A DNA stretch of 64,000 nucleotides from the NCBI GenBank assembly GCA_022820505.1, contig JAJEFK010000021.1, positions 62,001 through 126,000 on the forward strand, written 5' to 3'. Below are positions 2,106-19,938 of the stretch, piece by piece. The first letter of the stretch is position 1. Each line of letters opens with the position of its first letter. The notes under the pieces were generated by a model that saw only the letters and a list, made by a program, of their open reading frames with translations, did not search any database and was not told where the DNA came from. Source of the DNA: Acidimicrobiia bacterium (lineage in GTDB: Bacteria > Actinomycetota > Acidimicrobiia > Acidimicrobiales > Poriferisodalaceae). A program made the position numbers and the translations under genes.

Positions 2106-3131
2106 ATGCCGATCCGGCTCTCACAGATACTCAGACGGTCCTTGGATCCCGAAGACGTCGAGTCGAGCGTCGGTGCGCACGAACGCAGTTTCGACTTCGG
2201 GCGCCGCAAGGGTCGCGACCGGCGCGCCACCGATCATCGGGACTTCGTCGAGAACTACTACGACCTTGCGACCGATCTGTACGAGTACGGCTGGGGCGAG
2301 TCGTTTCACTTTGCCCCGCGGGTTCCCGGCGAGAGCCGTCGTGCGTCGATTGCGCGACAAGAGCACCTCTTTGCACTCAAGCTCGGCCTGCAGCCCGGCA
2401 TGCGCGTCGCCGACTTCGGCTGCGGCATCGGCGGCCCGCTGCGGGAGATCGCCCGCTTCTCGGGGTCGCAGATCGTGGGAATCAACGTCAGCGCGTACCA
2501 GATCAGGCGCGCGGTTGCCTATACCGAGGAGGCAGGGCTCAGCCATCTCGGGACCTACCTCGAATCGGACTTCACCGACATCGACGAAGCGGACGAGTCA
2601 TTCGATGCCATCTACGCGCTCGAGTCGACGTGCCATGTGCCCGACCGCGTGGACGTCTTCGCCGAAGCGTTCCGCCTGCTCAAGCCGGGCGGCTGCTTCG
2701 CGTCGCACGAGTGGTGTCTCACGGATCGATTCGACACGGGCAACTCGCATCACCGGCAGCTCAAGCACGACATCGAACTCGGCGCCGGGCTGCAGGACAT
2801 CATCGCGCTGCACGAGGTGGATGCCGCCTTGGACAAGGTCGGCTTTGAGGTGCTCGAAGCACTCGACATGGCCGATCAAGCCGGGCCGTCGATTCCGTGG
2901 TACGAGCCCCTAGCCGGTCCCAAGCTGTCGCTGACAGGCCTCAGGAGCTCCCGTGCCGGGCGATCGGCGACCCACACGATCCTCCGGGCGCTCGAAGCGC
3001 TTCGGGTCGTCCCGCGCGGCACATCGGGAGCATCGCGAATTCTGAACATCGGCGGGGCTGCGCTCGCAGAATCGGGGCAGCTGCAGATCTTTACCCCGCT
3101 GTACTTCGTGCTCGTGCGGAAGCCGGCGTAG
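2106..3131 (+). CDS. Sterol 24-C-methyltransferase family protein (ERG6/SMT-like)
   Basis: SAM-dependent methyltransferase of 341 residues with all signatures of the ERG6/SMT family, which methylates C-24 of the sterol side chain. Visible are the sterol-binding YEYGWG box (residues 59-64), the SAM-binding FGCGIGGP loop (104-111), the family motif YALESTCHVP (170-179) and the C-terminal sterol-methyltransferase domain (about 270-341), ending in the typical IFTPLYFVLVRKP. The C-terminal domain separates it from generic small-molecule methyltransferases. The gene follows the DUF3179 gene and converges with the membrane-protein gene, overlapping it by 41 bases. No squalene epoxidase or oxidosqualene cyclase is visible here, so the substrate may be imported or made elsewhere. 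Confidence 0.85.
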   Translation: MPIRLSQILRRSLDPEDVESSVGAHERSFDFGRRKGRDRRATDHRDFVENYYDLATDLYEYGWGESFHFAPRVPGESRRASIARQEHLFALKLGLQPGMRVADFGCGIGGPLREIARFSGSQIVGINVSAYQIRRAVAYTEEAGLSHLGTYLESDFTDIDEADESFDAIYALESTCHVPDRVDVFAEAFRLLKPGGCFASHEWCLTDRFDTGNSHHRQLKHDIELGAGLQDIIALHEVDAALDKVGFEVLEALDMADQAGPSIPWYEPLAGPKLSLTGLRSSRAGRSATHTILRALEALRVVPRGTSGASRILNIGGAALAESGQLQIFTPLYFVLVRKPA

Positions 3132-4284
3132 CCGGTCGCCCGGCGCTGCCGCCCAGAGCGCCGAATACGGCGTACAGGGCGGCGATTCCCGCGAGCACCA
3201 GACCGCTGACGACGGCGACGTAGGCCGGGTAGTTCGAGTGCTCCTTGCCGCAGACGGTGTACCACTGCACGTCATGCGCAGGAGGCGTGGTGCACGCAAA
3301 CGTGAAGTCCTCCGCGTAGTCCTCCACGCAGAGGTACTTGTCGCGCGTGTTGCCGGTGATGTCCGATTCTTCGACACCGCAGGGGCCGGGCACCTGGTGC
3401 AAACCGCTGCTCACGTGGGTCTCCGGCGCGAAGAACGCCATGCAGATGACCAGGGCGATCAAGTAGGCGGCAGCTCCGCGCCCCAGCCAATCCACCGGTT
3501 GCCCCTCCACACGCGCAGTGCGGCGCCCGAAGTACGACACCGCGCCGTAGATGACCACCCCGGTGCAGAACGCGACCAGTCCAGGCGTTCCCCCGTCGAG
3601 CAGCTGCAGAACGAACATCTGCGCCATCATCAACGGCGTCGTGATGCACGCAGTCAGCACGATGCCGGCGACGAAGCGCCGCCTGGTGACAAAGCTCTGC
3701 TCGGTGCCATCGTGGCCGCGCAGGACCAGATCGAGCAGCAGGGCGAATGATCCGGTGAACGTGAGCACCCACAGGCTGCTGCTGAGCGGCGCCCCGAGGA
3801 GCCGATCCGCTATGGCGGGATCGGTGTCATGCCATGTCCACCAGAGGAACTTGGCGCCGACGATGTCGTAGGGCGCGTACAGCACCACCGCCACCAGTCC
3901 GGTGAGCGCCGCGGCCGGCCACCGCCCCAGCCCGAGACGACGGATGCCGACCGTCGGCCAGTACAGGAAGACGATGTACACGCACGGGATGTACAGCGGC
4001 AGGCGCGGGGTGATCATGATGGTCGCCTGGGCCTGCCAGAAGGTGTCGACGACCGGCAGCGCCATGAAGATCACGTCGTTGGCTGTGCCGGCGATGAGCG
4101 CGGCAACCCAGGCGAGCCGGTTTCTGCGCCCGGCGCGGACAGCGTGAATCAGCGCCAGCGCTGCGCAAACGATGATGACGTACTCGCCGATCAGGAAAGT
4201 CGGCTGGTTGGCCCACTGCTCGGCGGGGTTGGTGAACGTCTTCCAGGGAAGGTCTGGCGACACCTCCCACGGCAGCGTTCTCAC
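3091..4284 (-). CDS. Multi-pass membrane protein of unknown function
   Basis: Unrecognised 397-residue protein with about eight to nine hydrophobic helices. A luminal or periplasmic-looking loop (about residues 295-350) carries at least five Cys (GPCGVEE, KYLCVED, TFACTT, YTVCGKE), suggesting disulphides outside the membrane. A GTG start is used. The gene starts 15 bases after the stop of the fatty-acid-hydroxylase gene, so the two are almost certainly co-transcribed and may act on the same lipid. The 3' end overlaps the convergent sterol methyltransferase gene by 41 bases, allowing antisense interference. I assign no reaction. Confidence 0.75.
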   Translation of the reverse strand: MRTLPWEVSPDLPWKTFTNPAEQWANQPTFLIGEYVIIVCAALALIHAVRAGRRNRLAWVAALIAGTANDVIFMALPVVDTFWQAQATIMITPRLPLYIPCVYIVFLYWPTVGIRRLGLGRWPAAALTGLVAVVLYAPYDIVGAKFLWWTWHDTDPAIADRLLGAPLSSSLWVLTFTGSFALLLDLVLRGHDGTEQSFVTRRRFVAGIVLTACITTPLMMAQMFVLQLLDGGTPGLVAFCTGVVIYGAVSYFGRRTARVEGQPVDWLGRGAAAYLIALVICMAFFAPETHVSSGLHQVPGPCGVEESDITGNTRDKYLCVEDYAEDFTFACTTPPAHDVQWYTVCGKEHSNYPAYVAVVSGLVLAGIAALYAVFGALGGSAGRPATPASARARSTAG

Positions 4285-4299
4285 TGTCGGAACGTCCGC

Positions 4300-5124
4300 T
4301 CAGTACCTGACGAACGGTTCGAGTTCGCGCCCGGCGACGGCATCGCCGAGGTCTCGCTGGCCGCGCCCGCCGAAGACCTCTGGGCCGTAGTGCCTGCCGT
4401 GCCTGCGCAGGGTGCCGTGCAGGCGGTCCCAGATCAGCAGATGCTGTCCGAAGTTCACATGGACGTGGGCGTGATGGTCATCGTGGAACTGCGCCGGCGG
4501 CTGCCACGGCAGCGCCGACTCCAGCCTGACGCCGGAATGACCGGCCACGTTGAACACAACGATGTACAGCAGCACACCGACGACAGACAGTGCGTGGAAG
4601 GGAATGACGAGCAGCGGTGCCAATGTGGCGGCTTGCAGCATCAGCAGTTCCGCCGGGTGCATTGCCATCGTCACGTAGGGATTCGTCGCGACGAACCGAT
4701 GGTGAAATCGGTGCACGTGGCGGAACATGAACCGTGTGTGCAGCAGGCGGTGCACCAGGTAGGCGGTGTATTCGGCCAGCAGGAACCACACGACAGTGGA
4801 GCCGACGGTGTACGCCCAACCGCCCCAGCCCGCCACATCGGTGTAGATGGGCGCGTCGAGGCTGCCGCTCGCGATGGCGTAGATCAGAGCGCCGCTCAGC
4901 AGGCCGCTCAGCAACATGTTGCGGGTGCCGGCCCAAACGGCGAGGCGGTGAAGCTCCGGCGACAGGAAACGGTCAGGCTGCAGCTTCCACGATTGCGCTG
5001 TCGAGCGCCGCCGGATGTAGTGGCGGCAATAGAAGTAGCCGGCGACCGCGTGATACGTGACAATGCCCGCGAGGCTGGCACCGCCGATGCACGCAATGAG
5101 GAGGCTCCAGTCGACCCCTCCCAT
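4300..5124 (-). CDS. Fatty acid hydroxylase / sterol desaturase family protein
   Basis: Integral-membrane di-iron oxygenase of the FA_hydroxylase superfamily, which includes C-5 sterol desaturase, C-4 methyl oxidase and fatty-acid hydroxylases. The 274-residue protein has about five hydrophobic helices and the expected histidine clusters: H125-x3-H129 (HRLLH), H138-x2-HH (HRFHH) and H214-x2-HH (HDDHH) followed by HVNFGQH. Substrate cannot be read from sequence. The neighbourhood is suggestive: a sterol methyltransferase lies 1.2 kb away, and bacterioferritin ends 33 bases upstream on the same strand, which would suit an iron enzyme expressed with iron-storage genes. Confidence 0.85.
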   Translation of the reverse strand: MGGVDWSLLIACIGGASLAGIVTYHAVAGYFYCRHYIRRRSTAQSWKLQPDRFLSPELHRLAVWAGTRNMLLSGLLSGALIYAIASGSLDAPIYTDVAGWGGWAYTVGSTVVWFLLAEYTAYLVHRLLHTRFMFRHVHRFHHRFVATNPYVTMAMHPAELLMLQAATLAPLLVIPFHALSVVGVLLYIVVFNVAGHSGVRLESALPWQPPAQFHDDHHAHVHVNFGQHLLIWDRLHGTLRRHGRHYGPEVFGGRGQRDLGDAVAGRELEPFVRY

Positions 5125-5157: not shown

Positions 5158-5631
5158 CTAGTCGTCGCCGATCTGGCTCTGTAGGTAACGCTCGATGCCG
5201 ATGTCCTCGATGAGACTCTGCTGGGTCTCGATCCAGTCGAGATGCGCTTCCTCGCCGACCAGCAGGTGCTCGAGCAACTCGCGGGTGCCGGCGTCGCCGT
5301 GGTCGAGGCACAGGCGCACACCGCTGCGGTACCGATCGATGGCGTGCTCCTCGAGCTGCCGGTCGAGCGCGAGCTGCTCGGGCACGGTCTCGCCGATCAT
5401 CACCGTTCCCAGCCGCTGCATATTGGGCAGCGCATCCAGCAGCAGAATGCGCTCCATCAGCTTCTCGGCGTCGCGCATCTCCTCGACGGACTCCTCGTGG
5501 TACCTGGAGGCCAGCCGGTCATAACCCCAGTTGCTGGCGATCTTGGAGGCGGCGAAGTACTGGTTGATGGCCGTCAGCTCGGCCGTCAGCGCTTCGTTCA
5601 AGAACTCGATGACCTCGGGCGATCCCTGCAT
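5158..5631 (-). CDS. bfr: Bacterioferritin
   Basis: Iron-storage protein of 157 residues, the usual family length, with a four-helix ferritin fold. Ferroxidase ligands are found at family positions E18, E51, E94, E127 and H130, and Met52 for haem binding is present. The remaining ligand, normally His54, is Asp54 here (EMRDAEK where EMRHAE is usual); the codon is GAC at 5470-5472. The gene starts 10 bases after the bacterioferritin-associated ferredoxin gene and precedes the fatty-acid hydroxylase, in what looks like one iron-regulated operon running leftward from the metal box at 5940. Confidence 0.95.
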   Translation of the reverse strand: MQGSPEVIEFLNEALTAELTAINQYFAASKIASNWGYDRLASRYHEESVEEMRDAEKLMERILLLDALPNMQRLGTVMIGETVPEQLALDRQLEEHAIDRYRSGVRLCLDHGDAGTRELLEHLLVGEEAHLDWIETQQSLIEDIGIERYLQSQIGDD

Positions 5632-5641
5632 GAACTCCAGC

Positions 5642-5872
5642 TTATGCGCCCACCGCGATCGCTTCGAAGGCGATCGAGTGGACAGGATGATGCTCGGGAT
5701 CGATGCCGTCGAGCACGCACTGGTCGAGCACGGCCTGGATCATGGCGACGCAGCTGCCGCAGTCGGTCCCGGCACCGCATGCCATCGACACGTCGCGGAC
5801 CGTGGTGCCGCCGTGCGCGGCGAGCCGCCGGATGGCGGTCTCATTCGTCGCAAGACATTGGCAGACGATCAT
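5642..5872 (-). CDS. bfd: Bacterioferritin-associated ferredoxin (BFD-like [2Fe-2S] protein)
   Basis: Small [2Fe-2S] protein of 76 residues with the BFD cysteine pattern C4-x-C6-x31-C38-x2-C41. BFD proteins pass electrons to the bacterioferritin haem to release stored iron as Fe(II). I chose the ATG at 5872 because the Cys motif then sits at the N-terminus as in the family; an in-frame ATG at 5905 would add 11 residues not typical of BFD. It lies 10 bases upstream of bfr, and a candidate metal-regulator box and a second palindrome lie upstream of its start. Confidence 0.9.
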   Translation of the reverse strand: MIVCQCLATNETAIRRLAAHGGTTVRDVSMACGAGTDCGSCVAMIQAVLDQCVLDGIDPEHHPVHSIAFEAIAVGA

Positions 5873-5904
5873 GGATGCAGCGGGCTCCGGCGGGCAGCGG
5901 CGCA

Positions 5905-5921
5905 TGCACCAACGTGGTGCA
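5905..5921. promoter_or_regulatory. 17-bp palindrome in the bfd 5' leader
   Basis: Perfect inverted repeat TGCACCA-N3-TGGTGCA, 33 bases upstream of the chosen bfd start and downstream of the metal box. It could be a second operator or an mRNA hairpin near the start. No factor is assigned. Confidence 0.4.
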
Positions 5922-5939
5922 CGACTCCTTATGGCCCAT

Positions 5940-5955
5940 GTTAGGCACTGCTAAC
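5940..5955. promoter_or_regulatory. Candidate DtxR/IdeR-type metal operator
   Basis: Inverted repeat GTTAG-N6-CTAAC, containing TTAGGC and GCTAA, which resembles DtxR-family boxes (TTAGG/CCTAA half sites). It lies between the regulator gene (ending at 5973) and bfd, about 70 bases upstream of the bfd start, where an operator for bfd-bfr is expected. On the minus strand the right end of the repeat gives TAACAT, a possible -10 element, so binding could block transcription. The spacing differs from the standard 19-bp IdeR box, so this is inference. Confidence 0.5.
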
Positions 5956-5972
5956 GCACAATGCGCAACTGC

Positions 5973-6650
5973 TCAGTCGCCTGCGGTGACGAGGATGCGC
6001 GCAGCGGTGTAGGCGCTGACGCCCACCGTGCCCTCGTCCATCTCCACAGTGGCGGTGCCGTCTGGCGAAACCGACATGACGGTTCCCGAGCGGCCCGGCA
6101 TGAGCCCGGATTGCTCCAAGAACTCAAGCTGGCCGGGTGCGAATTCGAGCTCTTCAGGAATGCGCTGCACTATGAAGCCACCGGTCTGCCCGACATCTGC
6201 GAGCGGCATCGCGTCGGTCGGCGCGGTGTAGTCGGAGCCGGGGATGGGGTTGCCGTGCGGGCAGGTATTCGGATCGTGGAGCAGTTTCATCATCGCCCGC
6301 TCCACGACTGGCGAGATCACGTGCTCCCAGCGGCCGGCCTCGTGGTGGGCGTCGGCCCAGCTCAGCTTCAGGACGTCGGTCAGGAACCGCTCGGCCAGCC
6401 GGTGCCGGCGCACCACGGTCGTGGCGATCTGCTCGCCCTCGTCGGTCAGGCTGATGTGCGCGTCTTCGCCCACATTGACCAAGCCCTCGCGCTGCATGCG
6501 GCGGATCATCTCTGACACTGCTGGACGCGAGACCTCCAGCCGTTCGGCGATGCGCGCCTGGATGACCTCGACGCCGTCCTCCGCTAGCTCGTACACCGTC
6601 TCGGAGTACTCCTCGAATGCGGGGTGGTACTCCGTCGGCTCGTACCCCAT
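5973..6650 (-). CDS. DtxR-family metal-dependent transcriptional regulator
   Basis: DNA-binding regulator of 225 residues: winged helix (about 1-70, recognition helix near SRPAVSEMIRRMQ), DtxR dimerisation/metal domain (about 75-150, RRHRLAERFL and AGRWEHVIS) and a C-terminal FeoA/SH3-like domain (about 155-225). Metal ligands matching DtxR H79, E83, H98, E105 and H106 are H83, E87, H102, E109 and H110. The primary-site residues Met10 and Cys102 of DtxR are Glu14 and Gly106 here, so metal choice may be unusual. The ATG at 6650 is preceded by GGTGG and starts the family-like N-terminus; upstream in-frame starts exist. It probably controls bfd-bfr through the box at 5940. Confidence 0.9.
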   Translation of the reverse strand: MGYEPTEYHPAFEEYSETVYELAEDGVEVIQARIAERLEVSRPAVSEMIRRMQREGLVNVGEDAHISLTDEGEQIATTVVRRHRLAERFLTDVLKLSWADAHHEAGRWEHVISPVVERAMMKLLHDPNTCPHGNPIPGSDYTAPTDAMPLADVGQTGGFIVQRIPEELEFAPGQLEFLEQSGLMPGRSGTVMSVSPDGTATVEMDEGTVGVSAYTAARILVTAGD

Positions 6651-6843
6651 GGCCGCCACCATAGCGGCAGCCTGCCGACCGGCTGTGCCGGATTTCGAAA
6701 CCCGGTTTCGAGGGCGCACAAGCGAACATGACGGTTGCGCTCACCGCCGTCGCAGTGATCTGGCGCAGGGTTTCGCGGGCACACCGGCTCGGGGCAGACT
6801 GAGGGAGTCCCATGCGGCCGACGCCAACGAATCGGAGAGTGCG

Positions 6844-7611
6844 ATGGATCTGCAGCTGGCGGGAAAGAATGTCCTTGTGACAGGAGCGGGCCAGGGACTC
6901 GGTCTGGCTATTGCTGCGGCGTTCGCTGATGAGGGTGCGAATGTGGCCTTCGCCTACAACGCTTCGAGCGAGGGTGCGGAGAAGGGCGCAGCCGCAGCCC
7001 AAGAAGCTGGCCGCGCGGCGTTCGCAATCCGCTGCGACGTCACCAGCGGCCATGACGTGCAGCGCACGGTCGATGAGGTGATCCGCCAGCTCGGCAGCAT
7101 CGATGTGCTGGTCAACAATGCGGCCTACACCGACACCGGGCCGTTCCTCGACATCGACGCCGACGATCTGCAACGGATGGTGGACGTGACGGTGATGGGC
7201 AGCCTGCGGGTGACCCAGGCCGTCGTGCGGCACATGGTCGATGTCGGCATCGAAGGCTCGATCGTGTCGCTCATGGGCGACTCCGGCCGCGTGGGTGAGA
7301 GCCGCTTGGCGGGTGTGGCCGCAACCCGGGCATCCACCATGGGCCTGATGAAGTCGGTCGCCAAGGAATTCGGCCGAAACGGCATTCGCGCCAACACCGT
7401 GTCGCTCGGGCTGGTGCGCTCGGAGCGGTTCGCCCACCACACCGGCAATGCCGACGACGAGCGCATGGCCCGCATCGCCAAGATGTACCCGCTGCGCCGT
7501 GTCGGCGTGCCCGACGATGTGCCGCCGATGGTGCTGCTGCTGGCCTCGCCTCTGTCGGGATGGACGACGGGCCAGACCGTCTCCGTCAACGGCGGCTACT
7601 CGATGGTGTGA
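6844..7611 (+). CDS. Short-chain dehydrogenase/reductase family protein lacking the YxxxK motif
   Basis: Classical-length SDR (255 residues) with the Rossmann NAD(P) motif TGAGQGLG (about 14-21), the NNAA motif and the C-terminal GQTVSVNGG. Where active SDRs carry Tyr-x3-Lys, this protein reads VAATRAS, so both catalytic Tyr and Lys appear to be replaced. It may bind cofactor without acting as a normal dehydrogenase. ATG 6844 follows GGAGA with five bases of spacing. Its stop lies 3 bases before the GTG of the molybdenum hydroxylase gene, so the two are translationally coupled. Confidence 0.88.
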   Translation: MDLQLAGKNVLVTGAGQGLGLAIAAAFADEGANVAFAYNASSEGAEKGAAAAQEAGRAAFAIRCDVTSGHDVQRTVDEVIRQLGSIDVLVNNAAYTDTGPFLDIDADDLQRMVDVTVMGSLRVTQAVVRHMVDVGIEGSIVSLMGDSGRVGESRLAGVAATRASTMGLMKSVAKEFGRNGIRANTVSLGLVRSERFAHHTGNADDERMARIAKMYPLRRVGVPDDVPPMVLLLASPLSGWTTGQTVSVNGGYSMV

Positions 7612-7614
7612 GAC

Positions 7615-10044
7615 GTGTTCCAACTTGACGAGACGGTTCCGACGAGCGGCGGGCCGTTCGGCGAGCCGGTCCCCCGACGCGAGGACGCCCGACTGCTGAG
7701 AGGCCGGGGGAGCTACATCGCGAACATCCGCTACGACGGGCAGCTTGCCGTGGCGTTCGTGCGAAGCCCTGTCGCTCATGGGCGCATCGTCTCGGTCGAC
7801 GCATCTGCCGCCCAGCAGGCCCCTGGCGTGGTCGATGTCGCGACCGGCGCCGATCCGGATTTCGCCGGCTTGGCGCTCATTGCCGAGTCGGCGTTGCCGA
7901 CCCATGTCGCCACCCCTCAGCCGGCGCTTGCCGCCGACAAGGTGCGCTATCAAGGCGAGGCGGTGGCGGCGGTCGTGGCTATCAGCCCGTCAGCCGCTGC
8001 CGACGCAGCCGAGCTCGTGGAGGTGACCTACGAAGAGCTGGGTGCCCATGTCGACGCTGTGGCTGCAGCAGCGCAGCCTGCCGACCCGGTGCATGACGCC
8101 GCACCCGGCAACCTCCTCGTCACACGGACCTTCGATGCGGGCAATGTCGATGCGGCCCTCGACAGCGCTCACTTCGTTATCGAGCGCGCCTTCCGCACCA
8201 ACCGGCACGGTGCTGTGCCGATGGAGGGCCGCGGCGCCGTGGCTGTCTGGGACGCCAGTCGAGCCAAGCTCACGCTGCACTCAGTCTCGCAAGTGCCGTA
8301 CCTGCACCGCAGCAGCCTCGCGACCGCGTTGGGCCTGCCCGAGAGTGCAGTGCGCCTGGAGGTCGGCGATGTCGGCGGCGGCTTCGGCACCAAGGCCGCG
8401 CTGTATCCCGAGGATGCTGCGGTGTGCCAGCTGTCTCGCCGCGTGGGCCGCCCGGTGGGATGGGTCGAGACCCGATCCGAGCACATGGCCACGGCCCTGC
8501 AGGCGCGTGACCATCACTACCGGGTTCGAGCCGGCTTCGAGGCCGACGGCACGCTGGTGGCCGTCGACGCTGTGCTGCACGCGAATGTCGGGGCGTACAG
8601 CTCGCCGCCGTGGACGGCCGGCATCGAGCCGCTCATGGCCGGCGGCCTGCTGACAGGCCCCTACAAGCTCTCCCACTATCGCTGCGAGGTGCTCGGCGTG
8701 GCCACCAACACCGCGCCGACCGGCCCGTACCGGGGTGTGGCCCGGCCGGCGACAGTATTCGTCATGGAACGCCTGCTCGACGATGCAGCCGCTGCGCTCG
8801 GGCTCGCCCCGGTCGACATCCGCCGTCGCAACCTGGTAGCGCCCGAAGATGTTCCTTACACCGCTCCTACTCGACTGGTGCATGACTCGCGCACCTACCT
8901 CGACTGCCTCGACCAGGCCGTCGAACTCATCGACTACGAGGGATTCCGTGCCGGCCAACGCGGCGCCCGTGCTGCCGCGTCGAGCATCGACGTTCCGGAC
9001 GGCGATGGCGTCGCCAACGACGGAGGCGCCGGGCGAGACCGTCTCATCGGGATCGGCTTCGCTTGTTACAACGAACTGACCGGGCTCGGGCAGAAAGCGT
9101 CGGCCGGGCCGCGGCTGCCGTTCCGCACCGGTCACGAATCCGCCGAGGTCCGCATCGATCCGTCGGGCGCTGTGACCGCAGCGATGGGCGTGACGGCCCA
9201 GGGTCAAGGCATCGAGACCACCATGGCCCAGGTGGTCGCGGCCGAGCTCGGGGTCGGCGTCGATGACGTGGCCGTGGAGATGGGCGACACCGATCGCCTC
9301 GCCTTCGGCTTGGGGGCATTCGCCAGTCGCCAGGGCGTCATCGGTTCGGGCGCTGCGACGCTCGCAGCGCGCACGGTGCGAGCCAAAGCGCTCGTCATTG
9401 CGGCACACCTGCTCGAAGCCGAACCCGAGTGGCTGAGCATCGACGACGGCTTCATCCACACGCAGGACGCCCCATCGGTCGGCGTCACGCTCGCTGAGGT
9501 GGCGCGCTTGGCCTACTTCGAGCCGCACCGGCTCCCGCCCGGGCTTGAGCCCGGCTTGGAGGCCATGCGCTTCTACGACCCGATGACCGGCACGTTCGCG
9601 GCGGGCGCCCAGGCAGCAGTGGTTGCCGTGGACCTCGAAACCGGCGAGGTGGACCTGCAGCGCATCGTGTGCGTGGAGGACACCGGCCGCGTGATCAACC
9701 CGATGATCGTGGAGGGCCAGATGCACGGCGCCATCGCCCAAGGAGTCGGCGGCGCGCTGTACGAGCACTTCGTCTACGACGCCGACGGCCAGCTGCAATC
9801 GGGCACGTTCATGGACTACCTGGCCATCACTGCGGACCGGATGCCTTCGATCGAGCTGGGCCATGTGGCCGATCCGGCGCACAATCTGAACCAGATCCGC
9901 GGCGTGGGCGAGGGCGGCACACTCGGCCCGTATGCCGCCATCGCAAATGCCGTATGCGATGCCCTTGCGCCGCTGGGCGTCACCGTCGACGAGCTGCCGC
10001 TCAGCCCCGCCCGCATCCACGCCGCAATCGCCGCTGCCTCATAA
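7615..10044 (+). CDS. Xanthine dehydrogenase/CO dehydrogenase-family molybdopterin-binding subunit
   Basis: Large, molybdenum-cofactor subunit of the xanthine oxidase family (809 residues). Aldehyde-oxidase/xanthine-dehydrogenase a/b hammerhead domain about 20-135, Mo-binding domain beyond. Recognisable motifs are GGGFGTK (about 257-263), GPYRGVARP in the active-site loop (about 367-375), QGQGIETTMAQV and the near-C-terminal GVGEGGTLGPYAAIANA, which contains the base-catalyst Glu. The loop is not the CO-dehydrogenase form I sequence, so an aldehyde or N-heterocycle hydroxylase is likelier. The FAD and [2Fe-2S] subunits that normally accompany it are absent nearby; an SDR-like gene lies directly upstream instead. 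GTG start. Confidence 0.92.
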   Translation: MFQLDETVPTSGGPFGEPVPRREDARLLRGRGSYIANIRYDGQLAVAFVRSPVAHGRIVSVDASAAQQAPGVVDVATGADPDFAGLALIAESALPTHVATPQPALAADKVRYQGEAVAAVVAISPSAAADAAELVEVTYEELGAHVDAVAAAAQPADPVHDAAPGNLLVTRTFDAGNVDAALDSAHFVIERAFRTNRHGAVPMEGRGAVAVWDASRAKLTLHSVSQVPYLHRSSLATALGLPESAVRLEVGDVGGGFGTKAALYPEDAAVCQLSRRVGRPVGWVETRSEHMATALQARDHHYRVRAGFEADGTLVAVDAVLHANVGAYSSPPWTAGIEPLMAGGLLTGPYKLSHYRCEVLGVATNTAPTGPYRGVARPATVFVMERLLDDAAAALGLAPVDIRRRNLVAPEDVPYTAPTRLVHDSRTYLDCLDQAVELIDYEGFRAGQRGARAAASSIDVPDGDGVANDGGAGRDRLIGIGFACYNELTGLGQKASAGPRLPFRTGHESAEVRIDPSGAVTAAMGVTAQGQGIETTMAQVVAAELGVGVDDVAVEMGDTDRLAFGLGAFASRQGVIGSGAATLAARTVRAKALVIAAHLLEAEPEWLSIDDGFIHTQDAPSVGVTLAEVARLAYFEPHRLPPGLEPGLEAMRFYDPMTGTFAAGAQAAVVAVDLETGEVDLQRIVCVEDTGRVINPMIVEGQMHGAIAQGVGGALYEHFVYDADGQLQSGTFMDYLAITADRMPSIELGHVADPAHNLNQIRGVGEGGTLGPYAAIANAVCDALAPLGVTVDELPLSPARIHAAIAAAS

Positions 10045-10200: not shown

Positions 10201-10449
10201 ATGGTCGCTGCCGTGAACGAAGCGATGCTGCACGAACGTCGTCGCCGCCCCGGCGAAGTTCGCGATGCCATCGAAGACGTGCTCGCTTGTGCAGACGGGC
10301 CCTTGCCGGTGGACGTAATCCATGCACGAGTTGAAGCTCGACTTGGCGCCGATGTCGCCGCCTCGTCGGTTCGCAGCTACTTGCGACTCAACGCCGACGG
10401 AGACGGACAGTTCTCCAGAGTCCGCCGCGGTGTCTACGTCCTTCGCTGA
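10201..10449 (+). CDS. Small winged-helix protein of the R-M locus (HARE-HTH-like)
   Basis: 82-residue protein that reads like a HARE-HTH/winged-helix domain: helices around RPGEVRDAIEDVLAC and PVDVIHARVEARLG, a helix SSVRSYLRLN, then the wing FSRVRRGVYVLR. Such domains are often fused to the N-terminus of DNA methyltransferases or restriction enzymes, where they probably contact DNA. Here the domain ends in a stop, and the methyltransferase starts 20 bases earlier in another frame. It may therefore be a split-off DNA-binding module or the victim of a frameshift. It could also act as a regulator of the locus. Confidence 0.6.
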   Translation: MVAAVNEAMLHERRRRPGEVRDAIEDVLACADGPLPVDVIHARVEARLGADVAASSVRSYLRLNADGDGQFSRVRRGVYVLR

Positions 10450-11341
10450 GCCGTTCGCGGTCGTCGGCAACGCGGCTCTGTACCACGCCGACTGTCTGGA
10501 CTGGATGGCTGCGCAGCCGCTGGCCTCGATCCAAGGCGTCGTCACCGACCCTCCATACGGCCTGGTGGAATACTCGCCGTCGCAGCAGGAGAAGCTGCGA
10601 AACGGCCGTGGCGGTGTCTGGCGGCTGCCACCGAGTTTCGATGGGCATCGGCGAGCCCCTGTGCCGCGCTTCACCACGCTGGGTCGCGATGACCTTGATC
10701 GCCTGAGCTGCTTCTTCAGCCGCTGGACGGCTGCCCTGATGCCGGTGCTTGTTCCCGGCGCCCATGTGCTCGTCGCGTCGAATCCGCTGGTGTCTCATCT
10801 CGTTGCAAATGCCATCTGCATGGCAGGGCTCGAGCGCCGGGGCGAGGTTGTGCGACTTGTCATGACGATGAGAGGCGGTGATCGCCCCAAGAACGCGCAT
10901 CACGAATTCCCCGATGTGACGGTCATGCCACGTTCAGGGTGGGAACCTTGGCTGCTCTTTCGCAAGCCGCTCGATGGTCGCGTGCAGGACAACCTTCGGA
11001 TATGGGGCACCGGGGGCCTGCGACGCCATTCGCCTGAGCGCCCGTTTGCCGATGTGATCAAGTCAGCCCCGACGCAGCCCGCGGAGCGGCAACTGGCGCC
11101 GCACCCCAGCCTGAAGCCGCAGTCGTTCCTTCGTGAGGTGGTCCGAGCCGTCCTGCCTCTTGGCGAGGGAACTGTGCTCGACCCATTTGCGGGCTCAGGC
11201 TCGACGTTGGCCGCAGCCGAGTGGCTCGGCTATCGCAGCATCGGCGTAGAGAGCGACATGACCTACGCCGACATGGCAGTGAGCGCCATCAAGCGCCTGC
11301 GCGACTACGAAGTTCCCTCATCGAGCGCGTCATCGAGGTAG
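10430..11341 (+). CDS. Site-specific DNA methyltransferase (type II, N6-A or N4-C)
   Basis: DNA amino-methyltransferase of about 303 residues in beta-class order: catalytic motif IV TDPPYG comes first (about residues 46-51) and the SAM-binding motif DPFAGSGSTLAAAEWLGY follows near the C-terminus (about 246-263). DPPY methylases modify adenine N6 or cytosine N4; the target sequence cannot be read. The frame is open back to an ATG at 10322, but that stretch is the out-of-frame shadow of the small HTH gene. GTG 10430, inside the end of that gene, is the likely start. The 3' end overlaps the convergent nuclease gene by 37 bases. Confidence 0.88.
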   Translation: MSTSFAEPFAVVGNAALYHADCLDWMAAQPLASIQGVVTDPPYGLVEYSPSQQEKLRNGRGGVWRLPPSFDGHRRAPVPRFTTLGRDDLDRLSCFFSRWTAALMPVLVPGAHVLVASNPLVSHLVANAICMAGLERRGEVVRLVMTMRGGDRPKNAHHEFPDVTVMPRSGWEPWLLFRKPLDGRVQDNLRIWGTGGLRRHSPERPFADVIKSAPTQPAERQLAPHPSLKPQSFLREVVRAVLPLGEGTVLDPFAGSGSTLAAAEWLGYRSIGVESDMTYADMAVSAIKRLRDYEVPSSSASSR

Positions 11342-11964
11342 ACCCAACTCTGGCGCAGCTTGGCGATGCCGTCGCGATGCAGCGTCGCCGTCCGCGTGCC
11401 GAGTTCGCCCCGCTCGTTGCGGCGGAAGTCGTGCGTGGTGACATGGGCCAGATATACCTCGGTGAAGCGCAGCGGAGTCCGGGCCGTCATGGGCTGGGTG
11501 GTGCGGTCGACGGTGTAGACGAAGACGCAGAACCACTGGTCTCGGGCACCGTGGGTGTCCACCGCTCCGCCGCGTTTGGTTGTGGCCTTGACCTCGACGC
11601 CGCGTTCGCCGGCTTTCACGGCATTGTCGGGATAGGCGCCTGCAACCACGAGGTCGGGATGACCGTTGTGGTAGTTGTTCGGCACGAGCGTTCGAGAATG
11701 CGCTGACAGATAGGCCGTCAACATGTCGGAGACGACGCCGGACAGAATCGCTCCCCGCACGGTGTCTTCGAGGCGTCCGAGTCCCTTGCCGGCAAGGTGT
11801 TGGTTGACGTCGTAGAAGAAGTCGTAGACGTCCTGCATAGCCGATTCGAAGTCGAGCAGGCGAAGCTCGTAAGGCAGTGCGATGGCGGCGTTGAGGCGCT
11901 CCCGACGGACGATTCGGCGCTCTGTCTCCACATCGCGGCAGCATAGGTCGGGCCATCTCAGCAC
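11305..11964 (-). CDS. Putative type II restriction endonuclease (PD-(D/E)XK fold)
   Basis: 219-residue protein, convergent with and overlapping the methyltransferase gene by 37 bases, a common type II R-M arrangement. A PD-(D/E)XK-like catalytic centre is visible: HPDLVV (near residue 105), then about 20 residues later GVEVKATTK, giving D...ExK. The N-terminal part, rich in helix (ESAMQDVYDFFYDVNQHLAGKGL), may be the DNA-recognition portion. No family with known specificity is recognised. GTG 11964 is the longest start; an internal GTG giving VETERR is an alternative. Function is inferred from fold and context. Confidence 0.72.
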   Translation of the reverse strand: MLRWPDLCCRDVETERRIVRRERLNAAIALPYELRLLDFESAMQDVYDFFYDVNQHLAGKGLGRLEDTVRGAILSGVVSDMLTAYLSAHSRTLVPNNYHNGHPDLVVAGAYPDNAVKAGERGVEVKATTKRGGAVDTHGARDQWFCVFVYTVDRTTQPMTARTPLRFTEVYLAHVTTHDFRRNERGELGTRTATLHRDGIAKLRQSWVYLDDALDEGTS

Positions 11965-16243: not shown

Positions 16244-17010
<767 letters not shown>

Positions 17011-17014
<4 letters not shown>

Positions 17015-17088
17015 GCGTGTGCCTCGGAACCAAGGTAGGCGTCGATGATCGCATCGTCGGAGCGAATGTCAACGGATTCGCCGGACGG
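17011..17088 (-). pseudogene. Orphan C-terminal tail of a LivG ATPase
   Basis: On the minus strand an open stretch of about 25 codons reads [20 protein letters not shown] then AHA and stop. This lines up with the tail of the LivG domain in the fused transporter (EIRANETVVDAYLGSGAHT). Nothing upstream resembles the rest of the ATPase. The stop codon overlaps the livF ATG as ATGA, the coupling typical of intact livG-livF pairs. It is therefore a remnant left by a deletion or rearrangement whose breakpoint lies at about 17085-17130, next to the sigma-factor gene. Confidence 0.72.
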
Positions 17089-17129
17089 CATGCGTGACGA
17101 CGCCGCGAAAGAGTCAGGCGTGAGCGGAC

Positions 17130-17687
17130 ATGACAGCCATGATGGCTGTCTGCATGCTCGCCGCTCACGACGAGGCCTGGTTCCGGCACCTCTATGCCGA
17201 GGCGTACCGGCCGCTGCTGGCGTATGCCCGCCGCAGGGTCGATGCCGCAACTGCCGACGAGGTTGTCGCTGACACGTTCCTGACAGCGTGGCGCCGTCGC
17301 GACGACGTTCCCGAAGGCTCCGAACGTCTGTGGCTGTTCGGCGTGGCCAGGAACATGATCCGCAACGCCACACGCTCCAGTCGCCGGCGCCAGACGGCGC
17401 ACGATCGGTTGCGACTGGTCCGCCCCGCCGCGGCAGACGAAGCGGTCGCGCCTGAGGTCAGCGAGCGCTCGACGCTGATCACAGCGGCCCTCGCTGCCCT
17501 GTCTGAAGCCGACCGGGAAGTGCTCATGCTCGTGGCGTGGGAGGAGCTCAGCCATGCCGAGATCGGCCAGGTGCTCGGCATCTCGGCGAACGCCTCGGCC
17601 ATCCGTGTTCATCGGGCCCGCAAACGACTCGCTGCGCGCCTGGATCGTCTTGATGACGCAAGCGGCGGCGAAGGGAGTGCTTCATGA
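17130..17687 (+). CDS. ECF-family RNA polymerase sigma factor
   Basis: 185-residue sigma-70-like factor of the extracytoplasmic-function type: region 2 (about 12-80, with FRHLYAEAYRPLLAYARRRV and the WLFGVARNMIRN segment) and region 4 (about 125-178, with LSEADREVLMLVAWEELSHAEIGQVLGIS and VHRARKRL), with no regions 1 or 3. It would direct transcription of a small stress or envelope regulon. The stop overlaps the next start as ATGA, so the downstream membrane protein is its likely partner. Several start codons are clustered at 17130-17160; I kept the longest. It faces away from the liv operon. Confidence 0.9.
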   Translation: MTAMMAVCMLAAHDEAWFRHLYAEAYRPLLAYARRRVDAATADEVVADTFLTAWRRRDDVPEGSERLWLFGVARNMIRNATRSSRRRQTAHDRLRLVRPAAADEAVAPEVSERSTLITAALAALSEADREVLMLVAWEELSHAEIGQVLGISANASAIRVHRARKRLAARLDRLDDASGGEGSAS

Positions 17688-18655
17688 CTGGTAGCGGCAT
17701 CGAAGACGAACTGCTCGCCGATCTGCGCCGGGCGAACCCGGTCGACGTCGATGCGCTCGCCTCGGCGACGGACCCGGAGCCGGCCCAGTTGCTGGATTCG
17801 ATCCTGGCGGACAGCGCGGACGCATCTCCGCGGCTTCGAGTGGTTCACGGGCCGAAGAGATCGTCATCAGTCGGCGCGCCCGCTCGTCGACGCTGGATCA
17901 GCGCAGCGGCCGCGGCGGCGGTGATCGCCGTCGTCGCGGCTGCGACGATCGTGGTGTACGACACCGGCACCGGTCGCGATGCAACCGCTGCCGTGCACGA
18001 GGCCGTCCAGACCACGATCGGCGTGAGCAGCTCGGCCACCACATCCACGACGGTCACATTCGACTTCGATGTCTTGGCCGAGCCGTGGGAAATGACGATC
18101 GAAGGCGTGTTCTCGGACCGCAGCTTCGAGTACCGGCTGACATCCGGACCTGCAGTGCCCGAGGCAGGCATCCCGGATCTGGGCTCCTACGCCGAAGTGG
18201 TCATCGGCGATCAGGCGTATCGAGCGACCGGTGACGGACCGTGGGAGGGCCCCCATCCATATGTCTGGGCTCCGGAATCCGAGGATTCGAGCGCACCCGT
18301 CAGGTCGAATCTGACGTTCGGCGTCACCATCGACGATCTCGGTGCCGTGTTCGACTTCGTCGAGGTGGGCGACACCAGTCTCGACGGCGTGACGGTCGCC
18401 CACTACCGCACGCACTCCCTGCCTGCTGGCGCAGGGGCCGGCTTCCTCATGTCGCTCGGCATGTTCATGACCATGACGAATCAGGAGCCGCCTCAGCGAC
18501 TGGACAACGTCCAGCTCGACGTGTGGGTGGATCGCGACGACCTGATCAGGCGGGTCAGCTACACCGCCGTCATCGACGGCGCCGGATCATTCAGCGTCGT
18601 CACGGATTGGGCTGACTTCGGCACAGCACCGCCGATCACGGCGCCGACCACCTGA
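17684..18655 (+). CDS. Membrane-anchored partner of the ECF sigma factor (putative anti-sigma or lipid-binding-like)
   Basis: 323 residues: a short cytoplasmic part (about 1-65), one membrane helix (about 70-90, ISAAAAAAVIAVVAAATIVV) and a large extracellular domain. That domain reads like LppX/LprG-type or CU044_5270-type beta-rich proteins (repeated beta segments such as VTFDFDVLAEPWEMTIEGVF, LDVWVDRDDLIRRVSYTAVI). No zinc-binding anti-sigma motif (HxxxCxxC) is present. The ATGA overlap with the sigma gene argues for a functional pair in which this protein holds or senses for the sigma factor. The role is inferred from position. Confidence 0.7.
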   Translation: MTGSGIEDELLADLRRANPVDVDALASATDPEPAQLLDSILADSADASPRLRVVHGPKRSSSVGAPARRRWISAAAAAAVIAVVAAATIVVYDTGTGRDATAAVHEAVQTTIGVSSSATTSTTVTFDFDVLAEPWEMTIEGVFSDRSFEYRLTSGPAVPEAGIPDLGSYAEVVIGDQAYRATGDGPWEGPHPYVWAPESEDSSAPVRSNLTFGVTIDDLGAVFDFVEVGDTSLDGVTVAHYRTHSLPAGAGAGFLMSLGMFMTMTNQEPPQRLDNVQLDVWVDRDDLIRRVSYTAVIDGAGSFSVVTDWADFGTAPPITAPTT

Positions 18656-18786
18656 GCGCGGAAGTCACCCACGGCCGCGCGGCGTCCTGTAGGGACACCG
18701 TCGGCATGGGCGAGTGCATGCAGCTACTGCCATGATGAGCCCCGAATTGGCGGCCGTGTGGGCCGGCATGGCACGAAGGGCAGGTC

Positions 18787-19938
18787 ATGGAGATACACGG
18801 CACGTGCAAGGAAGGATTCGAGGCAGTCCGCGACGCCTTCGAGCGGAACTTCGGCGAAGGCCTCGAAGTTGGTGCGGCGGCGGCGGTGACCGTCGACGGC
18901 GAGTCTGTCGTGGATATCTGGGCTGGAGACGCCGATACGAACGGCACCCCGTGGGACCGGGACACGATCGTGAACGTGTACTCCACCACCAAGACCATGG
19001 CGGCGACGTGCATGCTCGCGTTGGCCGATCGGGGCGAGCTGGATTTCGATGCGCCGGTGTGCGAGTACTGGCCCGAGTTCGCACAGAACGGCAAGGAGGG
19101 CGTGCTGGTGCGGCACGTCATGTCGCACACGGCGGGCCTGCCCGGATTCGTGCCGCCGGTATCGGCCGAGGATCTGTACGACCTCGACGCGATCGCCGAA
19201 CAGCTCGCTGCTCAGGAACTGTGGTGGGAGCCAGGAACCAAGTCGGGTTACCACGCCGTCACCCAGGGCAACCTCGAGGGCGAGATTTTCTACCGCATCA
19301 CCGGCCAGCGCATGGCGGATTGGTTCCGCACCGAAATCGCCGAGCCGCTCGGCGCGGACTTCTGGATGAGCCTGCCCGCGTCGGAAGACCACCGCGTCGG
19401 CGAGCTGCTTCCGCCCCCGTCCCTGCTGGAGGTTCTCGAAGCGAGCGGGGTGCCGATTGACCCTGATTCGATTGCCGTCCGCACCTTGGCGAGCTGCTCG
19501 CTTGACGCCACCGAGCCCCGGACGCGTGCGTGGCGAGCAGCCGAAATCCCGGCGGCGGGCGGGATCGGAAATGCCCGCGCGGTTGCACGGATCCATTCGA
19601 TGCTGGCCTGCGGCGGAGAAGTGGACGGCGTCCGGATCATGTCCGAGGCCGGGGCGCGCAAGGGCCTCGAGGAGCAGGTCGACAACATCGACGAGGTGCT
19701 GATGCTGCGACTGCGGCACGGCCTGGGCTTCGCCCGCCAGCTCGACGGCTGGGTGACCAGCCCGAATCCGAACCACATGTACTGGGGTGGCTGGGGCGGA
19801 TCCATCGCCGTCGTCGACTTCGACGTGCGCACGTCGGTGGCCTACGTGATGAATCGGATGGATGCCGCCATCACCGGCGACCCGCGGGGCGGTCGCATCG
19901 TGGATGCCGCCTTTGCCAGCATCGCTGCGATGGACTGA
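18787..19938 (+). CDS. Serine hydrolase of the beta-lactamase/EstB family
   Basis: 383-residue penicillin-binding-protein-like esterase (class C beta-lactamase fold). The nucleophile motif S66-T-T-K69 and a Tyr motif at Y155-H-A are in the expected places; a glycine-rich WGGWGGS near the C-terminus takes the place of the KTG box. No signal peptide is seen, so it is probably cytoplasmic, like EstB-type carboxylesterases; it could act on short-chain esters or lactones. It precedes an LLM flavin oxidoreductase on the same strand. A second family member lies at 44961. Confidence 0.9.
   Translation: MEIHGTCKEGFEAVRDAFERNFGEGLEVGAAAAVTVDGESVVDIWAGDADTNGTPWDRDTIVNVYSTTKTMAATCMLALADRGELDFDAPVCEYWPEFAQNGKEGVLVRHVMSHTAGLPGFVPPVSAEDLYDLDAIAEQLAAQELWWEPGTKSGYHAVTQGNLEGEIFYRITGQRMADWFRTEIAEPLGADFWMSLPASEDHRVGELLPPPSLLEVLEASGVPIDPDSIAVRTLASCSLDATEPRTRAWRAAEIPAAGGIGNARAVARIHSMLACGGEVDGVRIMSEAGARKGLEEQVDNIDEVLMLRLRHGLGFARQLDGWVTSPNPNHMYWGGWGGSIAVVDFDVRTSVAYVMNRMDAAITGDPRGGRIVDAAFASIAAMD

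Follow-up and report, generated by a model that had tools for sequence, protein, structure and literature searches.

A bacterial ERG6-type sterol methyltransferase gene in a sponge-associated acidimicrobial genus without known sterol synthesis

Introduction

What would a sterol C-24 methyltransferase (SMT) do in a bacterium that cannot make a sterol by known routes? The question is raised by a gene in a 64,000-nucleotide stretch of DNA (the window, meaning the whole stretch analysed) from a metagenome-assembled genome (MAG) of the Acidimicrobiia. The answer favoured here, with a probability of roughly two in three, is that the gene encodes a functional, SAM-dependent enzyme of the ERG6 family, which would methylate acquired sterols at C-24 in a sponge-associated bacterium without known sterol synthesis.

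Bacterial SMTs, including those of sponge symbionts, are active in vitro according to work published in 2023; most of those assayed act on desmosterol, and one active SMT was taken from a Chlamydiae MAG in which no other sterol genes are present (Brown 2023, PMC10070321). A preliminary description of the locus held that bacterial cases are few, a view that this work and the present data have overtaken: a single scan across genome contigs returned 264 SMT-encoding stretches, of which the best 80 are all from MAGs and span many phyla. Most of these 80 loci from other genomes carry names that we take to be those of sponge projects (RHO, COS, IRC and others).

The window gene and its product

The gene is an intact open reading frame of 341 amino acids with an ATG start, which fits window positions 2106-3131 (+) exactly. 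Its predicted product, a sterol C-24 methyltransferase of the ERG6-like clade (clade A, see below), is assigned from the frame itself, two Pfam domains, trees and an AlphaFold2 model. Methyltransf_11 (PF08241) scores 69.3 bits, and Sterol_MT_C (PF08498) scores 69.1 bits (cut-off 21.7) over residues 277-340 (2934-3125, +); in a search of the genome the latter domain reaches 72.6 bits, and it matched none of 14 control genomes. Region I, the sterol-binding aromatic motif YEYGWG (residues 59-64; 2280-2297, +), is followed by the SAM-binding loop FGCGIGGP (residues 104-111; 2415-2438, +) and by region II, YALESTCHVP (residues 170-179; 2613-2642, +). These three motifs and the C-terminal domain had been named in the preliminary description, and Pfam and alignments find every one of them in place.

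In the alignment, regions I to III read DLYEYGWGESFHF, IYALESTCHVP and HEWCLTD, and two further motifs are PWY (264-266) and IFTP (328-331); YEYGWG, the SAM loop, ExTCHxP and PWY are conserved in yeast Erg6 and Arabidopsis SMT1. D103/FGCGIGGP represents the GxGxG-type loop of class I SAM enzymes, and Tyr59 corresponds to Tyr81 of yeast. The protein shares with ERG6/SMT1 (EC 2.1.1.41) the order of domains, regions I-III and about 40-45% identity over its full length (about 40% end to end with yeast Erg6 and 45% with Arabidopsis SMT1, these two reference sequences being of limited authority). It differs from them in being bacterial, in grouping with bacterial SMTs (97/95, subject to a long-branch caveat) and in belonging to a host without sterol synthesis.

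The AlphaFold2 model, built from relatives derived from the loci, has a mean pLDDT of 85.9. The solved structures closest to it in fold are class I methyltransferases of small molecules, among them MitM, RebM and a GPP C-methyltransferase; solved chains that match by sequence score at most 98 bits and leave the sterol C-terminal domain uncovered. An NCBIfam search gave no SMT-specific model, only generic methyltransferases far below their cut-offs. The modelled closeness to natural-product methyltransferases and to a GPP C-methyltransferase may point to an unlikely alternative, that of an ERG6 descendant now methylating a non-sterol isoprenoid (a sponge sesterterpene, a prenyl quinone or a polyprenol), with the oxygenases described below tailoring the same compound. 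Against this, clade A retains both the C-terminal sterol domain and the region I motif.

Two clades of sterol methyltransferases

A tree of 120 SMT rows from the same genome, its order and other MAGs splits into two clades, A and B. Clade A contains the window gene, the yeast and plant SMTs and, from Nitrospira and an alphaproteobacterium, those SMTs that adjoin a fusion of squalene epoxidase and cyclase. Clade B includes a second, diverged SMT of the same genome (L003:8426-9760, on contig C52 of genome G000). The position equivalent to Tyr81 is Tyr in 89% of clade A and Met in 100% of clade B (84/84 rows), and clade B also differs at other fixed positions.

A rooted tree used partial sequences of four non-sterol methyltransferases (MitM, RebM and two PMTs) as outgroup and eukaryotic rows of limited authority; tocopherol methyltransferases, sponge SMTs and the SMTs of Brown et al. 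2023 were left out. All SMTs, with the yeast, plant and window sequences, form one group (98/99) against these four outgroup methyltransferases, which is not the placement with non-sterol methyltransferases (tocopherol methyltransferases being its example) that the preliminary description had named as refuting its claim. The bacterial SMTs form a set separate from the yeast and plant rows (97/95; the yeast row raised a long-branch warning). The window gene falls within a bacterial subclade of 16 (100/99) drawn from Acidimicrobiia, Chloroflexi, Nitrospinae, Acidobacteria and alphaproteobacterial symbionts, and clade B emerges from among the bacterial SMTs on a long branch.

Domains, motifs and trees therefore agree with the original claim of a genuine ERG6-type SMT: the gene product is supported as a convincing bacterial member of this type and is predicted to be catalytically active. 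Taken alone, the enzyme is a further member of a family whose activity in bacteria has been demonstrated before.

Genome, lineage and neighbourhood

The window lies on a contig of 264,822 bases in a MAG of 3.29 Mb (61 contigs, 95.5% complete). At least seven further MAG contigs from this lineage carry orthologues of the gene with 86-99% identity, and on every contig of sufficient length the neighbours are the same. The long contig, these orthologues with their shared neighbours and the dN/dS ratio given below mean that the gene is neither a chance find nor contamination. The orthologues with 93-99% identity belong to MAGs of the jk18x and p16x series; the former come from a study of Caribbean Ircinia sponges (PMC9531527), and the latter share their accession series. 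The host genus is thus sponge-associated, its nearest named relatives being Ircinia-sponge MAGs.

The dN/dS ratio between the window gene and its lineage orthologues is 0.07-0.19, which indicates purifying selection and a function that has been kept. A gene that is vestigial, or was acquired by chance, and now serves no function would fit the lack of conserved sterol neighbours at the locus, yet this reading is hardly credible given this ratio across the lineage, the intact catalytic motifs and the presence of an SMT in 5/5 genomes of the genus.

No sterol-gene neighbour of the window SMT is conserved beyond the genus. The upstream DUF3179 gene was rejected as a partner, as it does not recur beyond the genus. 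Two genes converge on the SMT gene from downstream, one for a DUF7802 membrane protein (3091-4284, -) and one of the fatty-acid hydroxylase/sterol desaturase superfamily (4300-5124, -), whose product has no PDB match. Both were likewise rejected, since they do not recur beyond the genus and are absent beside the SMT of locus L039, so that their linkage is a feature of the lineage only. Farther along, a ferritin-like gene, a small frame and a gene for an iron-dependent DtxR-type repressor stand in a row (5158-6719, -), an iron-storage and regulation group that adjoins the SMT locus. A gene for an N6/N4 DNA methylase (10322-11341, +) overlaps tail to tail with a frame of 219 amino acids without Pfam match (11305-11964, -); the two are possibly a restriction-modification pair.

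Known sterol-forming enzymes are missing from the host genus

The preliminary description had also suggested a search for squalene epoxidase and oxidosqualene cyclase. Five genomes of the genus and three of genus g40, all MAGs of 93-98% completeness, contain neither squalene epoxidase (0/5 and 0/3) nor a squalene-hopene, oxidosqualene or any other triterpene cyclase (0/5 and 0/3). They also lack SQS_PSY, the family of squalene/phytoene synthases that covers squalene synthase and HpnCDE (0/5 and 0/3), which is present in 16 of 30 compared genomes.

In other genera of the order these searches do recover such genes. Genus g41, with a cyclase and squalene synthases and no epoxidase, has a hopanoid-like set; in g62 and g150, likely sterol producers by gene content, squalene epoxidase and cyclase are joined in single open frames and accompanied by an SMT. 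SMTs occur in all five genera (the host genus, g40, g41, g62 and g150) and the sterol-forming set is incomplete in three, which makes the SMT an orphan in three of the five. De novo synthesis, with early genes missing from the assembly or belonging to unknown families, could appeal to the incompleteness of the MAG (95.5%) and to the fused enzymes of g62 and g150. It is nevertheless very improbable, as three independent families are absent from every genome of the two genera while being detected by the same means in other genomes of the order.

What the genus does keep is a series of enzymes from sterol-modifying families. An SMT is retained in all five genomes and two copies in four of them (the host genus and g40 have one or two each), and every genome has three to four ERG4/ERG24 sterol reductases. 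The genome of the window has three such PF01222 reductases, one on contig C38 and a tandem pair on C39. Without squalene synthase, epoxidase or cyclase, the window SMT is an orphan, outside any de novo pathway. The absence of the sterol-forming enzymes is also compatible with a non-sterol isoprenoid as substrate, a reading against which the co-occurrence of three sterol reductases may be set.

A recurrent set of partner genes

The genus also has in common a fusion of GPP34 (Golgi phosphoprotein 3) with a cytochrome P450, about 675 amino acids long, and a KshA-type Rieske oxygenase; an amine-oxidase-like flavoprotein occurs in four of its five genomes. Among 298 genomes of the order, 24 have an SMT, 25 the fusion and 23 both, and carriers of either are confined to the same five genera of 172. 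A naive Fisher test gives p = 5e-31 for this co-occurrence, a value that ignores relatedness, the genomes not being phylogenetically independent. Of 26 carrier genomes, 21 have the Rieske gene and 20 the flavoprotein gene; neither gene is present in any of 20 genomes that lack SMT and fusion. In the same family, six genomes that represent five sister genera are devoid of SMT, fusion, Rieske and flavoprotein genes and of PF01222 genes.

Neighbour analyses used heuristic gene calls, with a GC-frame gene caller after the first round, in which several recurrent clusters of open reading frames turned out to be antisense artefacts of high-G+C DNA. The fusion is the commonest neighbour of the SMT. 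It lies within 10 kb in 42 of the 80 loci taken from other genomes and other phyla, and in only five of these 42 is a cyclase also near. Other neighbours are KshA_C Rieske genes (25 loci), an AcrB-type RND pump (21), the flavoprotein (14) and MMPL proteins (9), one scanned example of which has a sterol-sensing domain. A squalene epoxidase-cyclase is near the SMT in only 7/80 loci, five of which also have the fusion.

In the genome of the window, the fusion gene (17185-19227, -, of contig C53 and locus L153) lies back to back with the single Rieske gene (G000:C53:19397-20437, +), and the single flavoprotein gene is at C15:4004-5368. Across the genus, fusion and Rieske genes are inserted at the replication origin, between yidC and parA-parB and beside dnaA-dnaN-recF-gyrB-gyrA. 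The large conserved frames near the fusion proved to be gyrA/gyrB, dnaA, dnaN and recF of this origin region. In this genus the genes are spread across several contigs, and the case for a joint pathway therefore rests on co-occurrence.

The Rieske protein has a KshA_C domain and, among PDB entries, matches KshA, the 3-ketosteroid 9alpha-hydroxylase, best (1.4e-23). Actinobacteria are often sterol degraders, and steroid catabolism, with a true KshA and with SMT and reductases merely channelling or detoxifying substrates toward degradation, would account for this match. It is an improbable reading, since methylation at C-24 would be expected to hinder removal of the side chain and since the same Rieske family stands beside SMTs and transporters in biosynthetic-looking loci of Chloroflexi, Nitrospira and Gemmatimonadota. 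The closeness to a steroid hydroxylase also argues against a non-sterol isoprenoid, as does the occurrence elsewhere of the same families next to sterol clusters of SMO-OSC, P450 and ERG24. The P450 and the flavoprotein, whose link to sterols is putative, would fit that alternative.

In other phyla of sponge symbionts the same partner genes are clustered with SMT-B, the clade B enzyme. The flavoproteins of a Chloroflexi and an Acidimicrobiia locus are 83% identical, which suggests horizontal transfer. Genus g40, itself without sterol synthesis, has the fusion, MMPL, flavoprotein and Rieske genes as a compact cassette (L162:12145-16120, L159:5924-9874 and L166:6248-10208), within which the SMT-B of its genome G118 is located. 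Orthologues of the MMPL/sterol-sensing protein are found in g40, g62 and g150 and not in the host genus, for which a dedicated uptake system for sterols was likewise not found.

Several variants of the set were also seen. In a genus mate (G059:C9, locus L184), a second, divergent fusion (5469-7478) is followed directly by an ERG4/ERG24-type reductase gene (7506-8645), with a long-branch SMT gene (16295-17410) 8 kb away; a divergent fusion resembling it occurs on G184:C43. On G100:C9, a gene for a 3beta-HSD-like dehydrogenase, of which the end of locus L183 (19351-19901) covers the start, lies beside an ERG4/ERG24-type reductase gene and is about 84% identical to its counterpart in Nitrospira sterol clusters, likely a single-gene transfer. 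In two g41 genomes (G263:C14:8575-9603 and G224:C11:6222-7247) the frame of the Rieske gene is interrupted by a single TAG codon, a sign of either a pseudogene or an assembly error.

Discussion

The favoured reading, methylation of acquired sterols, builds on the integrity of the gene, its family by sequence, purifying selection, the absence of three enzymes and the co-occurrence of partners, from which we infer catalysis, substrate, order of steps and sterol source. As established for ERG6, the methyl group of SAM would be transferred to the delta-24 double bond of a sterol side chain to give a 24-methyl(ene) product. Since the host cannot make this sterol by known routes, it would be acquired from the sponge, from the diet of the sponge or from co-resident sterol-making symbionts. 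The SMT would then be one step of a "sterol-editing" set, together with SMT-B, the three ERG4/ERG24-type reductases, the fusion, the Rieske protein and the flavoprotein. The reductases could reduce double bonds, and P450, Rieske protein and flavoprotein could oxidise or isomerise the sterol; given its change from Tyr81 to Met, SMT-B might, speculatively, act on a different state of the side chain. Counted against the acquired-sterol reading are the failure to find a dedicated uptake system in the genus, the lack of a sterol neighbour conserved beyond it, the scattered genes and the incompleteness of the MAG.

Parts of this arrangement have parallels. The SMTs of Brown et al. 2023 (PMC10070321) are also bacterial and come from sponges and other habitats, that of the Chlamydiae MAG likewise standing without a sterol pathway. 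The genus described here adds, to its SMT-A (the clade A enzyme), often SMT-B, reductases and GPP34-P450 without squalene synthase, a pattern not found in the text of that paper. In Ircinia MAGs, SMT1 is enriched and clusters of ERG24-CYP51-ERG7 occur with SMT1 or FDFT1 (PMC9531527). The sponge system and some of the MAGs are the same, but those clusters hold a cyclase, whereas the set described here has none and instead has GPP34-P450, Rieske protein and flavoprotein. Coxiella burnetii, too, makes no sterol and yet keeps the orphan sterol reductases Stmp1 and CBU1158, which modify sterols (PMC8787468); it is an intracellular pathogen without SMT, in contrast to the SMT-bearing sponge symbiont. 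The partner set of GPP34-P450, Rieske protein and flavoprotein appears so far undescribed: an open-access search found no paper that joins GPP34, cytochrome P450 and sterol, and neither a set centred on GPP34-P450 nor a whole genus with SMTs and reductases minus squalene synthase, which is weak evidence of novelty.

A broader proposal is put forward tentatively, at somewhat less than even odds. Sponge symbionts of several phyla may share a horizontally spread sterol-editing cassette of SMT-B, GPP34-P450, KshA-type Rieske protein and flavoprotein with an MMPL/sterol-sensing or RND transporter, and sterol-less genera, the host genus among them, would employ it alongside SMT-A to alkylate the side chains of sterols from sponge or neighbouring symbionts. 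If so, part of the unusual sterols of sponges would be a joint product of host and symbiont. Side-chain-alkylated sterols give rise to 24-alkyl steranes, which serve as biomarkers of algae and of the earliest sponges. Were sterol-less symbionts to alkylate acquired sterols, searches of bacterial genomes for cyclases would underestimate the bacterial contribution, sponge sterol profiles may be products of the holobiont, and the fusion and its partners would be testable candidates for unknown sterol-tailoring steps in sponges.
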